Source: Pseudomonadota bacterium (GTDB lineage: Bacteria; Pseudomonadota; Gammaproteobacteria; Nitrosococcales; Methylophagaceae). From it: a stretch of DNA of 64,000 nucleotides. Where the stretch lies: assembly GCA_030576275.1 (NCBI GenBank), contig JALIBN010000012.1:62001-126000 (forward strand). The letters run 5' to 3'. The position numbers were made by a program, and so were the translations under genes. Below are positions 35,038 through 42,050 of this stretch, piece after piece. Under the pieces are notes generated by a model. It saw only the letters and a list, made by a program, of their open reading frames with translations, had not been told where the DNA came from and ran no database searches. The first letter of the stretch is position 1; each line of letters starts with the position of its first letter.

Positions 35038-36798
35038 TTACATAGTCTCCGGTGTTGATACACCCATAACAGTTAAACCGTTATAAATTACTTGTTTAAC
35101 AGCAGAAACCAAGGTTAACCGCGCCTGACTCAACTCAAGATCATCAATAATAAAATGATGTGCATTATAATAAGTGTGAAAATCACGAGATAAATCCATC
35201 AAGTAATGTGCCAATATATGCGGCGTATGATTCAATGCTGACGATTCAATTACTTCTGGATAGCGCGCTAATGCGGTTAATAATGCTTGCTCATGTTCTT
35301 CAACTAAGCGAGTTAAGTGTATTTCACCTTGTACTTGATCCCATACCAAATTACGTTCAGCTAGTTGTCTAAATACACTACAAACACGTGCATAAGCATA
35401 TTGCACATAATAAACAGGATTATCAGTACTTTGTGTTTTCGCTAGTTCTAAATCAAAATCCATATGTTGATCAGCACCACGTAAAACATAAAAGAAACGA
35501 GCAGCATCTTTACCTACTTCTTCTCTTAATTCACGCAAGGTAACAAAATCACCACTACGCGTCGACATTGCTACTTTTTCAGATCCACGATACAACACCG
35601 CAAACTGAACTAATAATACTTTTAGTCTATCTGCATTTTCATTCATCGCTTCTAAAGACGCTTTTACACGAGGTACATAGCCATGGTGATCTGACCCCCA
35701 GATATCAATTACGGTATCAAAACCGCGATTGAATTTATTCAAATGATAAGCAATGTCTGAAGCAAAATAAGTTGTTTGGCCATTATCACGTACTACAACA
35801 CGATCTTTTTCATCACCATAATCAGTTGATCTAAACCACCAAGCACCGTCTTTTTCATATAATGATTTTGAATTTTTTAAGGTTTCAATCGCTTGATCGA
35901 TAACACCCGATTCCATTAATGAACGTTCTGAAAACCATTCATCATAAACTGTACCAAAATCTGCTAAATCAGCACGAATATCAGCCAAAATTGAATTTAA
36001 ACCTAAATCAAATAACTGACGATATCCCGACTCACCTAATAATGTTTTTGCCTTATTGGTTAATCCATCAATGTGCAGTTCTTTATCTCCACCTTGTGGT
36101 TCATCAAGAGGAACGTCAGCAAAAATCTCACTTGCTTGATATCGAAAGAGTTCACCTTTATCTGCTTTTAACGTAGCTGCTATATCTAAAACATAATCCC
36201 CTTTGTAAGCATTACTAGGGAAAGTAAATTGTTCGCCACAGGCATCTAAATAACGTAACCAAACGCTGGTTGCCAAAATATCCATCTGCCGACCTGCATC
36301 ATTTACATAATATTCACGATGAACATCAAACCCTGCAGCCATTAATAAACTACTGACCACAGAACCGTAAGCGGCACCACGACCATGACCAACATGTAGT
36401 GGGCCAGTAGGATTAGCCGACACAAATTCAACTTGAACGCGTTTTCCTTTACCTACTTGGCTACGACCAAACGTATTTCCAGAGGCTAATACATCTTTAA
36501 CGATTTGTTGAGTTGATTTTGCTGACAAAAAGAAGTTAATAAAACCAGGTCCAGCGATATCAATTCTATCAATGAAATCAACATCCTTCATCGAATCAAC
36601 CAATAAATTAGCTATTTGGCGAGGATTCATTTTGGCTGGTTTTGCTAACATCATGGCGATATTGCATGCAAAATCACCGTGTAATTTATCTTTAGTGCGT
36701 TCAATTTGTATTTCTGGCAAATCAACTTCAGAAAGCTTTTCCTGTTGAATAAGGTCCGTTAATGCAGTTTGAATTATTTTTATAAGCTGGGCTTTCAA
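35038..36798 (-). CDS. argS: arginyl-tRNA synthetase
   Basis: Charges tRNA-Arg. The 586-residue class Ia synthetase has an N-terminal Add-1 domain, the HIGH signature as [11 protein letters not shown] near 130, a degenerate KMSKS region (VAMSTRSG near 402) as in most ArgRS, and a C-terminal DALR anticodon-binding domain ending at MGVSTPETM. Its promoter must lie in the unusual DnaA-box-rich region upstream (36799-37371). Confidence 0.97.
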
Positions 36799-37371
36799 TG
36801 TCGTAAAACCTGATATTAATTAAGTCGTGTTATTTTAACTGATCATGAGTTATTGATCACAGAGAGAAAATTGAACTAGCTATGTTTTTGGTCATTTCAG
36901 CTTAGACGATTATGTTTTTTTTAATGCTTTTTTTACCTAGTTTTTGAAATTTGCGGGATATTAGCTTTTAATAATCATTAATATAGTTTTAAAAAGATAA
37001 TGATGTTGATGTTTTATGCCTGTGGGTATGTGGGTAATATTTTAAATTAGTTTAATATTAACAACTTATAAATCATCAGATCTGTTAATAAATGAGTTGG
37101 TTAATCAATGATCTCCTGTGGATAACTAAGCTACTTATCCACAGCCAAAGTTATCCACAAGTTATGCTCAAATTTATAAGGTATTTATACAGGAGTTATC
37201 TTTGACTACTTTGGGAGTCATAAACTAATTTAAATAATTTTAAAATAAACTTAATTCGACTGAAAATAAAATATTTAAAATTAATCACTTATAGTTACTT
37301 ATGCAGTAATATTAAAATTTAGCGGGAATGTTCTATAAATAAACATTGTTTAAAGCAACTTGGAATTTAGC
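36799..37371. other. AT-rich intergenic region with DnaA boxes; candidate replication origin (copy A)
   Basis: Very AT-rich region between argS and the priA stop. Three perfect TTATCCACA boxes lie at 37117-37125 (minus), 37135-37143 (plus) and 37151-37159 (plus), with a one-mismatch box at 37029-37037 (minus). GATC sites occur at 36841, 36855, 37079 and 37110. To the right (about 37200-37330) there is an extremely AT-rich stretch suited to unwinding. The segment 36991-37205 resembles 39577-39790 across priA. It may be oriC or half of it, a DnaA-titrating site, or a DnaA-regulated argS promoter. Confidence 0.55.
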
Positions 37372-39558
37372 TTAAAGTAAATCAAGCGGATCAATATCGA
37401 TTGACCATCTTACTTTTCGAGTTAACTTTAAAGATCCAATAGCAGGCATGAAATGATGAAGTAATTGATGTAAGGGTTTTCGTTGTTGGGACAATAATAA
37501 TAATTGTGCTCGATAACGACCTGCCCGTCTTTCCATAATGGCTGGAACGGGTCCCATAACAAGTACTTCTTGTTGCGTCGCCTGGTGGAAAAGACCTGAA
37601 ACATCACTTAAAAACTGCATGGCTAAAGATACGTCTTGCGATTCAGCACGAATGACACATAACGATCCTGTTGGTGGCATCGCCATCATTTTTCTTTCGG
37701 CTAAGATTTTTTGTGCTGTAAAAGCATAACCATGGTTAATAATATCTTGCCAAAATTCATGTTGTGGCTGGCTAGTTTGAATAAATACTTCGCCCTTTTT
37801 ATCACCACGCCCTGCTCGGCCTGTTACTTGAATAATTAATTGAGCTAAGGATTCTGTTGATCGAAAATCAGCACTAAATAAACCCTGATCAGCATCCAAT
37901 ACACCAACAAGCGTTACATTATGAAAGTCGTGACCTTTGGCTAACATTTGTGTACCAACCAATATTTTGGCACCACCTTGTCTAATTTCATTAACAATAT
38001 CGGCGAAAGCATTCACTTTTTGAGTACTATCTCGATCAATACGTAATACCGGGATTTCAGGAAAATAAGCCTGTAAAGTATGTTCTACTTGCTCCGTACC
38101 AGCGCCATAGGTTTTTAAATCAGTCGCTTGACAGGTCGGACATTTATCAACTAATCGCTGAATTAATCCACAATGATGGCAACACAAAATATTTCGTCGT
38201 TGATGAACTATCATTCTGGCATCACAATGTGAACAGGTCGCTTGCCAACCACAATCATGACACATTAAAACCGGTGCAAAACCCCGACGATTGATAAACA
38301 ATAAAACTTGGTTACCGGCTGAAAGTTGAGTTTTTATAGCCTGATACAAAACGGTTGAAATACCACTATTGGCTGAGGGGCCACGGCTATCAATCAATTT
38401 TATTTTAGGCATACTGGCGCCTGTGGCACGCTGATTCAAAATTAATAACTGATAACGCTGCTGTTCAACGTTGTATAAACTTTCTAGTGAAGGTGTGGCA
38501 CTACCCATCACAATAGGTATGTTAGCCCTCTGAGCGCGAATTAAAGCTACATTACGAGCATGATAACGTAACCCATCTTGTTGTTTATAAGATGCATCAT
38601 GTTCCTCATCAATAATAATTAAACCTAAGTTTGGCAGTGGTGTAAATACTGCTGAACGTGTACCAATTACTATATCAGCTAAAGCGGCTTTAGCTAATAG
38701 CCAGGATTGTTTGCGTTCGCCATCGGAAACTGCTGAATTCAAAATGACAATACGAGCAGCTAAACGCTGTTTAAATCGTTCAACAAATTGGGTAGTTAAA
38801 CCAATCTCAGGTATTAATATTAATATTTGCTTACCAGCCGCCACCATATTTTCAGAAAGTTGCATATACACTTCAGTTTTGCCACTTCCGGTGACCCCTT
38901 GTAATAAATATGGAGCGAAGAGTGCTCGTGACTGCCAAACATTTTCTACTGCGGTTTTCTGTTCGTCATTAAGTTGACAATGTTCGATTGGATTTTGGGT
39001 AATCAAAGGTTGTTTTATGTGCTGGAACGAATTGACTACTTTTTTTTCTTCTAAGCCCAGCAATGAAGTTCGACACTGACCTAACTGTTGATAAATAAAT
39101 TTTTGACTAACACCTTCTGAATACTCTTTTAATAAAGTGATTAACGCGTTTTGTTTTTTGCCTAATTTACTTTCTATAACCGAGGAAGTAAGTTGCCAAT
39201 AAGTTTCAGTTTCTAATTCAGCGGTTTCACCAAGGCGTATTTTTTTAGGTAAAACGGTTTGAAAACAATCACCAATAGGGTGGTGATAATAATCACTCAA
39301 CCATTGAGTCAAAGATAATAAGTCCGCAGACAGAATAGCGTGTAGATCGATAGCTTCAATTATTGTTTTTAGCTTAGCGGTATCACTCTCTTCATCAGAT
39401 TTTTTAATGTTAACAACGATACCTATTAACTCTCTACTTGCAAAAGGTACTTTGACACGCATGCCGGTTTGCCAAGTTATCTCAGAATTATTAGGCAGAT
39501 AATCAAAAGATAATCTTAGAGGACATGGCAGTGCAATTTGTAGAATTGTGAGTTTCAT
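37372..39558 (-). CDS. priA: primosomal protein N' (replication restart helicase)
   Basis: 3'-to-5' DNA helicase that reloads the replisome at forks. The 728-residue protein has an N-terminal DNA-binding domain, Walker A GVTGSGKTE near 222, the DEEH box (IIDEEHDASYKQQ) near 322, and a zinc-binding insert with eight cysteines in CHDCGW, CSHCDA, CCHHCG and CPTC (about 430-475), followed by helicase motifs V and VI (LVGTQMLAKG, QVTGRAGR). It is flanked on both sides by related DnaA-box clusters. Confidence 0.96.
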   Translation of the reverse strand: MKLTILQIALPCPLRLSFDYLPNNSEITWQTGMRVKVPFASRELIGIVVNIKKSDEESDTAKLKTIIEAIDLHAILSADLLSLTQWLSDYYHHPIGDCFQTVLPKKIRLGETAELETETYWQLTSSVIESKLGKKQNALITLLKEYSEGVSQKFIYQQLGQCRTSLLGLEEKKVVNSFQHIKQPLITQNPIEHCQLNDEQKTAVENVWQSRALFAPYLLQGVTGSGKTEVYMQLSENMVAAGKQILILIPEIGLTTQFVERFKQRLAARIVILNSAVSDGERKQSWLLAKAALADIVIGTRSAVFTPLPNLGLIIIDEEHDASYKQQDGLRYHARNVALIRAQRANIPIVMGSATPSLESLYNVEQQRYQLLILNQRATGASMPKIKLIDSRGPSANSGISTVLYQAIKTQLSAGNQVLLFINRRGFAPVLMCHDCGWQATCSHCDARMIVHQRRNILCCHHCGLIQRLVDKCPTCQATDLKTYGAGTEQVEHTLQAYFPEIPVLRIDRDSTQKVNAFADIVNEIRQGGAKILVGTQMLAKGHDFHNVTLVGVLDADQGLFSADFRSTESLAQLIIQVTGRAGRGDKKGEVFIQTSQPQHEFWQDIINHGYAFTAQKILAERKMMAMPPTGSLCVIRAESQDVSLAMQFLSDVSGLFHQATQQEVLVMGPVPAIMERRAGRYRAQLLLLSQQRKPLHQLLHHFMPAIGSLKLTRKVRWSIDIDPLDLL

Positions 39559-39576
39559 TAATAGTAATATAAGTTA

Positions 39577-39790
39577 TTTAAAAGATATTGATGATGATGT
39601 TTAGTGCCTGTGGATATGTTAGTAAGACATTATTTCGTTTTTAATTCAATTTGTTATTGTTAAATTTTAGTGTGTATAACTAAAAAGACTATATTGAATA
39701 ACCTGTGGATAACCATACAAGTTATCCACAGGTAAAGTTATCCACATATTATGATCAATTTTATATCGTGTTTATACAAAGGTTATATTT
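39577..39790. repeat. DnaA-box cluster upstream of priA (copy B of the repeat)
   Basis: Perfect TTATCCACA boxes at 39704-39712 (minus), 39722-39730 (plus) and 39738-39746 (plus), a TTATACACA box at 39671-39679 (minus) and a one-mismatch box at 39609-39617. The spacing of the three perfect boxes (18 then 16 bases) is identical to copy A, and flanks align by eye at roughly seven in ten bases over about 90 bp. The right end includes the last codons of the leftward Na/Pi transporter gene. The priA promoter must lie here. Confidence 0.65.
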
Positions 39791-41430
39791 TCATCTATTT
39801 GGTCTTTATTTTGATCTGTGACATCAATATTAAGTGTTTCAAAATGGATAAAAGCTTTTACTGATTGCTGTAGAAGTCGTCTTATTTGGCTAATAGTAGC
39901 CATGGTTTTATCCATTTTAGCGATAGATAATTTTCCCTCAGCACCGCGGCGCAATAACAGAGATTTTAATGATTGATACTCAGATTCAAGTGTATTCAAT
40001 TCATTTTTGAGAGTGTCTTCTTGATCGGTTTTTTGTCCAATATTGGCATGATTTAGTAAAACAACACTGTGTTTGTAAAACATATTTATTTGATCTTGAA
40101 TACTAGTATTTATTGCTGTTTCCACCTTTTTCTTATCAGCATTAATGTTGACGGCTAGTTCAGAAATAGCATCATAATATTGTGATATTCGAATAATACT
40201 TGGTAAGGCATCCGCGACTTCTTCGCTTAAGTTTTGTTTATATAACTCAGAAGTATAATCACCAATGGCAGTTGTTAATTTTTCAACGACAGAATCCTTT
40301 ACCGCCATGTTATTAATTGTTGTTTCAAAGTTAATACTATCTTTTGCCATGGCAAGTGAGTAATGACCGACTCTCTGCAGTTCTTTGTATAAAGCATGTA
40401 TTGCTAAATAAGGTATTGTTAAAGCATTTTTATCTAAATACCTCGGTGTAGCTTCATCTTCATCTTGAGTCTTAAAGCGACCAGATAACCATAAGACCAA
40501 TTTATCTGCCAATGGCCACATCAATAACACACCCAAAACATTAAAAATTGTGTGAAATAGTGCGAGCGTAGTCGTACTGGCATCACCTAAATGAAATAAA
40601 TCTTGGAAAAAGAGGATGGCGGTTATAAGTGGTGATAATAAAACAAGTGAAACTATAGCAGTAACCAAGTTAAAAATAACATGACTAGCCACCACTCTTT
40701 TGGCGACCGGATTAGCACCAAAAGATGAAAATATTGCTGTGGTTGTCGTGCCGAGATTACTACCAATGGCAATTGCCGCAGCGGGTAACAGGGTCATTAC
40801 ACCACCAGATAATGCCGTTAATGTAATCGCAAGGGTGACGCTAGATGATTGCATTAAGAGGGTGATTAAAAATCCCAAACCGGTATATATTAAAATATTT
40901 TTAATACCAATTTCACCGCTACTCGTTAAAGAAACCTGATCACCAAGTATAGAAAAGGTCTCTTTAAGCACATCAATGCCCATAAAGAGAATGCCAAAAC
41001 CTACTAATGCTTGGCCTATAGCACCAATATGACAGTCACCTTTAGCGAGCTTTATTACCATCCCAATACCAATCATTGGTAATGCAAACGCACTTATTTT
41101 GAAGTTAAACCCTATTAAGGTCACTAACCAACCAGTCGTTGTTGTACCAATATTACTGCCAAAAATAATCCAGATGGCACGTCTTAAACTCAATAAACCG
41201 GCATTGGTAAAACCAATGGTTGCTATGGTTACCGCGCTGGATGATTGAATTAAAGACGTTAAAAAAATACCGACGCCTAAACCACGTAGTCGAGTATTAG
41301 TCCAGTGATGTAATAATTGATTAAGTGTGCTTCCTGCAGCCATTTTAAGGCCATCGGACATTAACCACATGCCAAGTAAAAATAAACCTAAACCACCAAT
41401 ACCAGCACCGATCATTGGAAAAAGTGTCAT
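39772..41430 (-). CDS. Na/Pi cotransporter family protein with PhoU-like tail
   Basis: A 552-residue membrane protein. The N-terminal part (about 1-310) has eight or so hydrophobic segments in two Na_Pi_cotrans repeats, each with a QSSS motif (LTSLIQSSSAVT near 60, LMQSSSVTLA near 195) typical of the NptA/YjbB group. The C-terminal part (about 340-540) is helical and PhoU-like. It probably moves phosphate with sodium; YjbB-type members can export phosphate. It is divergent from folA. Confidence 0.9.
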   Translation of the reverse strand: MTLFPMIGAGIGGLGLFLLGMWLMSDGLKMAAGSTLNQLLHHWTNTRLRGLGVGIFLTSLIQSSSAVTIATIGFTNAGLLSLRRAIWIIFGSNIGTTTTGWLVTLIGFNFKISAFALPMIGIGMVIKLAKGDCHIGAIGQALVGFGILFMGIDVLKETFSILGDQVSLTSSGEIGIKNILIYTGLGFLITLLMQSSSVTLAITLTALSGGVMTLLPAAAIAIGSNLGTTTTAIFSSFGANPVAKRVVASHVIFNLVTAIVSLVLLSPLITAILFFQDLFHLGDASTTTLALFHTIFNVLGVLLMWPLADKLVLWLSGRFKTQDEDEATPRYLDKNALTIPYLAIHALYKELQRVGHYSLAMAKDSINFETTINNMAVKDSVVEKLTTAIGDYTSELYKQNLSEEVADALPSIIRISQYYDAISELAVNINADKKKVETAINTSIQDQINMFYKHSVVLLNHANIGQKTDQEDTLKNELNTLESEYQSLKSLLLRRGAEGKLSIAKMDKTMATISQIRRLLQQSVKAFIHFETLNIDVTDQNKDQIDENITFV

Positions 41431-41555
41431 AAAACCCCTAATATAATTAAGTGGTAATAAAATTTATTTTAATAATACCTTATCCTGAGAACCGTCCGAA
41501 TAATCTTCGACAAGTGTTATTCTATATTTAATATTATTTTTAGGATGTTTTGGGT

Positions 41556-42050
41556 ATGAAACTAGCAATTATTGTGGCCACAGATGAGCAAGGTTTAATT
41601 GGCAAAAATAATGACTTGCCATGGAAGTTATCGGCTGATTTACAATATTTTCGTCGGGTTACCATGGGAAAACCCATTATTATGGGTCGTAATACTCATG
41701 ACTCAATTGGTCGAGCATTACCGGGCAGAAAAAATATTATTGTGACTAAAAATAAAGCCTATCAAGCTGAAGGCTGCACTGTTGTACATTCAGTTAATGA
41801 TGCGTTGTTAGCTTGTGAGCAAGTAAAGGAAGTCATGGTGATGGGCGGGGCATCGTTGTACGAACAATTTTTACCAAAAGCCGACAAATTGTACTTAACT
41901 CAGGTTCATGCTTCAGTTACGGGAGGAGATACTTGGTTTCCTGAGTGGCATAAAAATGAATGGTCAGAAATAAGTAGAGAAGATTATCTAGCCGATGAGA
42001 AAAATGGTTACGCTTATAGTTTTATTGTCTATGAAAAAATAAAGAAGTAA
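41556..42050 (+). CDS. folA: dihydrofolate reductase
   Basis: Reduces dihydrofolate to tetrahydrofolate with NADPH. The 164-residue protein has the N-terminal motif GLIGKNNDLPW with the Met20-loop equivalent, catalytic Asp in SADLQYFRR (about 27), the MGRNTHDSIGRALPGR loop and the VMGGASLYEQFLP segment. ATG at 41556 is preferred, with AGGA at 41542; a TTG two codons earlier is possible. It is divergent from the phosphate transporter gene. Confidence 0.95.
   Translation: MKLAIIVATDEQGLIGKNNDLPWKLSADLQYFRRVTMGKPIIMGRNTHDSIGRALPGRKNIIVTKNKAYQAEGCTVVHSVNDALLACEQVKEVMVMGGASLYEQFLPKADKLYLTQVHASVTGGDTWFPEWHKNEWSEISREDYLADEKNGYAYSFIVYEKIKK

Follow-up and report, generated by a model that had tools for sequence, protein, structure and literature searches.

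Described replication origins

Bipartite replication origins contain two clusters of DnaA boxes, one of which holds the unwinding element, and usually lie around dnaA (PMC4285127; Epsilonproteobacteria, PMC5043019). The cause of origin splitting is not known, according to a review (PMC4285127). In the DoriC database, more than one candidate oriC is listed for chromosomes such as that of Acidaminococcus fermentans; these putative double origins consist of a duplicated dnaA region or of distant dnaA, parB, and hemE sites, with none at priA, and a review finds no evidence that two functional origins are used on one bacterial chromosome (PMC4403523). The text of a survey of gammaproteobacterial origins does not mention priA (PMC7174414), and a Francisella genome paper names priA and dnaA among the marker genes near oriC (PMC5859110). 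A search of open-access papers found no publication that places oriC at priA or describes a Methylophaga origin, and DoriC may contain an automatic prediction at this site. The default indicator gene of Ori-Finder 2022 is dnaA (PMC10225481), and origin finders with this default could misplace the Methylophagaceae origin.

The window analyzed here is a 64-kb stretch of DNA (C12:62001-126000) from a 2.37-Mb assembly of 34 contigs (G000). Judged from its sequence, it very probably contains the oriC of a Methylophaga-related gammaproteobacterium, in the form of two DnaA-box arrays beside priA: array B would be the ancestral copy, moved from the dnaA-dnaN spacer, and array A a later duplicate. Like E. 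coli oriC, which lies at mnmG/gidA-mioC, each copy is about 250 bp long, contains TTATCCACA boxes, is not beside dnaA, and has a candidate unwinding region to the left of a left-facing box (PMC10225481 and general knowledge). It differs from E. coli oriC in its neighboring genes, its duplication, and the lack of a detected SeqA in G000. The locus shares left- then right-facing DnaA boxes, AT-rich DNA, and a skew minimum with the proteobacterial dnaA-dnaN oriC, as found in a sister family. Unlike that origin, it is located at priA-folA, 75-215 kb from dnaA, contains no recognizable CTA-type DnaA-trio, and has a second copy in some species. Two DnaA-box clusters with one gene between them also characterize the bipartite origins of Bacillus subtilis and Helicobacter pylori (PMC4285127, PMC5043019), but there the intervening gene is dnaA and the clusters are unlike parts, whereas here it is priA and the clusters are homologous, complete copies.

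Two homologous DnaA-box arrays flank priA

Array A (36963..37212, plus strand) occupies the argS-priA spacer and array B (39549..39800, plus strand) lies upstream of priA. The left end of array B overlaps the first priA codons, and its right end overlaps the last codons of a Na/Pi-cotransporter gene. The arrays are 2.6 kb apart, with priA between them, and match the family profile with 185.6 bits (A) and 166.9 bits (B). Each contains a core triplet of perfect TTATCCACA boxes, located on the plus strand at 37117..37159 in A (boxes at 37117 minus, 37135 plus, and 37151 plus) and at 39704..39746 in B (39704 minus, 39722 plus, and 39738 plus). The start-to-start spacings are exactly 18 and 16 in both. 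The original prediction, made from the window's sequence, had described these three boxes on each side of priA, and their positions, orientation order, and spacing are all exactly as it gave them.

It also reported extra boxes upstream of the triplets, which were found at 37029, 39609, and 39671, all on the minus strand. In array A, the left box pair (37021..37037, minus strand) consists of ATACCCACA and TTACCCACA, the latter at 37029; in array B, the left box is ATATCCACA (39609..39617, minus strand). Both positions are conserved in an alignment of 38 array copies. The middle box of B, TTATACACA (39671..39679, minus strand), reads TGTtgATAA in related genomes. Within G000, A and B are 63% identical over a stretch of about 270 bp, which extends from -170 to +100 relative to the triplet and not further, so the similarity of their flanks is real but longer and weaker than the 90 bp at 70% first estimated.

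The 64-kb window contains nine perfect TTATCCACA boxes; 0.69 would be expected by chance, and every dinucleotide shuffle gave fewer than nine. All 34 contigs together contain 47 perfect boxes, none of which are paired closer than about 550 bp outside arrays A and B, and no second DnaA-box cluster was seen elsewhere in this whole-assembly search. The pattern TGTGGATAA-9-TTATCCACA-7-TTATCCACA occurs twice in G000, and the backward control of the triplet pattern has no occurrences in any of the genomes searched.

Four GATC sites had been noted near A; all exist (36841, 36855, 37079, and 37110), but only 37079 and 37110 are inside the element. The G000 genome encodes a D12-class adenine methyltransferase (C30:2436-3122), and no SeqA was found in it; therefore, if the GATC sites of the arrays are methylated, SeqA would not mediate their action.

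Element anatomy and candidate unwinding DNA

The anatomy of the element was read from the 38-copy alignment. In its left part, AT-rich DNA is followed rightward by TTTAAAAGAT, a period-3 block resembling GATTATGATGTTGATGATTA, TGCC, and a tandem left-facing box pair, in this order. To the right of these come the middle left-facing box, the core triplet, a TTATGATCA-like element, TTTTAT, and TTATACA..AGTTAT elements. The whole series is found in both A and B, and individual weak elements differ among species.

In terms of predicted stability, each of the five least stable 60-bp segments of the window lies within or next to one of the two arrays, which places unstable AT-rich DNA next to the boxes. 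One of the five is the candidate unwinding element of A (36957..37016), which is AT-rich, adjoins the left boxes, and holds a period-3 GAT/GTT block; its counterpart in B (39535..39594) is another. An alternative candidate site for A is located just to its right (37225..37284) and is the least stable 60 bp of the window.

The DnaA-trio, a series of 5′-CTA-3′ type repeats next to a DnaA box, is common among bacterial oriC sequences and not universal. No canonical CTA-type trio is recognizable by eye in the 38-copy alignment of the Methylophagaceae element. A conserved period-3 GAT/GTT/TAT block adjoins the left boxes (36995-37013 and 39584-39599); as read by eye from the alignment, it occupies the place of the trio with a polarity opposite to 5′-CTA-3′. 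In H. pylori, reversing the polarity of the DnaA-trio inhibited unwinding (PMC8235120). The array region contains no known RNA element.

This anatomy suggests how initiation may proceed. DnaA would load on the left box pair, the middle box, the core triplet, and the weaker right-hand boxes, and would open the unstable, AT-rich stretch next to the left boxes, in which the conserved GAT/GTT/TAT repeat lies. Helicase would then be loaded, and forks would depart in both directions.

GC skew points to a probable origin at the arrays

The cumulative GC skew of the window drops to about 39 kb and rises afterwards, giving a clean minimum. Along the contig, of which 226 kb are covered, the minimum falls at about window position 41,508, which is 1.8 kb to the right of array B. 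In relatives, for which skew was taken from sampled stretches, the local minimum is 1.5 kb (G033), about 7 kb (G034), or 28 kb (G018) from the array. Samples of the 2.27-Mb contig of G034 contain a single minus-to-plus switch, at the array, and a single plus-to-minus switch near 1.3 Mb.

Two relatives have single-contig chromosomes, G060 (2,697,465 bp) and G063 (3,106,976 bp), and the main minus-to-plus switch of both is at the array, with some single 10-kb samples of G060 near zero. Their dnaN genes are 122 kb (G060) and 215 kb (G063) from the array, within a replichore. One check proposed for the predicted origin, a skew minimum at the arrays, came out in its favor in the window and the contig, and both complete chromosomes switch skew at the array. 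Searches for a competing locus returned no other box cluster, and a dnaA locus with neither cluster nor skew switch.

Location, conservation, skew switch, predicted instability, and box geometry can all be read from the sequences. Because skew, geometry, instability, and conservation agree and no other cluster is present, the G000 arrays are very probably the chromosomal origin.

Probable relocation from the dnaA-dnaN spacer

In G000, dnaA-dnaN is on a separate contig with rnpA, yidC, and mnmE. This contig has no perfect DnaA boxes and its skew is monotonic. The gap between dnaA and dnaN is about 15 bp and box-free in the two Methylophagaceae genomes checked. An origin at dnaA is ruled out by the box-free contig, the 15-bp gap, and the monotonic skew. 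Across Methylophagaceae, the array is 75-215 kb from dnaA-dnaN and 12-125 kb from recF-gyrB.

In the sister family, a box cluster occupies the dnaA-dnaN spacer of all four genomes in which this spacer was read (G036, G038, G039, and G041). Trio repeats of the CTA type can be made out close to the cluster, and argS-priA is about 12-22 kb from this dnaA-dnaN origin. Since the sister family has an ordinary dnaA-dnaN origin and the Methylophagaceae spacer is closed and box-free, the origin appears to have moved to priA in the family ancestor. Relocation to priA with closure of the old dnaA-dnaN spacer is the simplest reading, and it would offer a before-and-after view of an origin that left dnaA for a replication-restart gene.

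One conserved array and a probably recurrent second copy

The triplet is present in 50 of 57 Methylophagaceae genomes and in none of six sister-family genomes; five of the seven Methylophagaceae genomes without it are less than 90% complete. Relatives that carry names, from a second collection, are Methylophaga and 'Piscirickettsiaceae' metagenome bins. Box spacing is kept across the family, as the conservation check of the original prediction had called for. Wherever the contig allows, array B has priA on one side and, on the other, either folA or a Na/Pi-cotransporter gene that precedes folA.

Array A is found in the argS-priA spacer of six genomes of one genus: G000, G001, G006, G008, G028, and, in a weaker form, G020. 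The other genomes examined yielded no relic of it. In a tree of PriA and ArgS, a single clade of the A-bearing genomes is rejected (p-AU 0.0006), and a tree of the elements puts the A copies in three places, with a borderline one-clade p-AU of 0.048. Since the A-bearing genomes are not one clade, array A probably arose more than once. Array A is probably a later duplicate of B, with recurrent duplication as the simplest reading of the trees; one old gain followed by several losses is possible. G033 carries two arrays in tandem within the priA-folA spacer (L132 6666-6907 and 6990-7233), which is a second kind of origin duplication. No trace of a duplication route, such as a left-over priA fragment, was found in the flanks above shuffled controls. 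The identities, 63% for A-B within G000 and 94% for A-A between G000 and G001, rule out that the two arrays have undergone recent gene conversion.

The A triplets of G000 and G006 are 93% identical while the neighboring A-priA spacer is 54% identical, which indicates that array A is constrained. Array A nevertheless diverges faster than B, with A-A and B-B identities of 0.70 and 0.77 between G000 and G006, and of 0.70 and 0.85 between G008 and G028. Because most relatives lack A and it evolves faster than B, array A may be dispensable.

Proposed twin copies and alternative explanations

Two box arrays around one gene at a 2.6-kb spacing, both conserved in G000, G001, and G006, recall a true Bacillus/Helicobacter-type bipartite origin, in which A and B would cooperate, DnaA would loop out priA, and only one array would unwind. 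Known bipartite origins have unlike parts with an unwinding element in one (PMC4285127), whereas here neither copy lacks a conserved element, both have very unstable DNA, and most of Methylophagaceae has B alone; a bipartite origin is therefore unlikely. The original prediction of such an origin is upheld by skew, conservation, and box clusters as far as an origin is concerned, but not in its bipartite part. Twin, complete-looking copies fit the data better than a split origin since no element of B is missing from A and since relatives with one copy get by without A. In this lineage, DnaA may assemble on either copy; A would then be a second origin, 2.6 kb away from B, with a redundant, auxiliary, or titrating role. 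That the copies are twin, independently competent oriC sequences on a natural chromosome, duplicated more than once around priA, is a tentative proposal. If true, origin redundancy would exist in nature, perhaps as a stage on the way to split origins.

It is somewhat doubtful that B alone initiates and that A is a decoy left by origin duplication, acting as a DnaA-titrating (datA-like) site or as a DnaA-controlled argS promoter. Array A is upstream of argS, changes faster than B, and is not universal as B is; yet a decoy could do without the unwinding-region features that A retains, and A outscores B on the family profile in G000. It is highly improbable that neither array is an origin and that the chromosome starts elsewhere, with DnaA-controlled promoters or titration sites at A and B. 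A leftward gene does follow each array, and B overlaps the priA start, but the main skew switch of two complete chromosomes is at the array, the genome has no other box cluster, and dnaA-dnaN has neither boxes nor a skew switch. A datA-like site would be a box cluster away from the origin, and both arrays are at the skew minimum. The promoter-only and datA-like readings for both arrays, raised as alternatives in the original prediction, were rejected because they leave the skew unexplained.

In Methylophagaceae, a family of methanol users, the origin thus appears to lie beside priA and not dnaA, with two complete-looking copies in this species and a few relatives, for which no earlier description was found. 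The origin is single in some close relatives, and in others it is present as tandem copies or as copies with a gene between them, so species comparison and single deletions offer a test of what a second copy does; why some bacterial origins are split thereby becomes a testable question in this family.

Neighboring genes

The gene between the arrays, priA (37372..39558, minus strand), has orthologues 59-95% identical beside the array in related genomes. Its left neighbor is argS (35038..36798, minus strand), and folA (41550..42050, plus strand) is the first rightward gene past the origin; the order of both is kept in relatives. The gene map bears out the early observation that each array precedes a leftward gene, argS for A and priA for B. 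The Na/Pi-cotransporter gene (window 39772-41430) is located between array B and folA here and in some genomes, and is absent from this place in others.

In Methylophagaceae, recF-gyrB is separated from dnaA-dnaN. In G033, G034, and G035, sites resembling parS lie at a distance of 12-15 kb from the array. In several family members, two parS-like sites separated by about 635 bp are located upstream of gyrB, inside recF or at its edge, as at C12:227039 and 227675 in G000 and C3:375114 and 375747 in G034 (L177:13114 and 13747).
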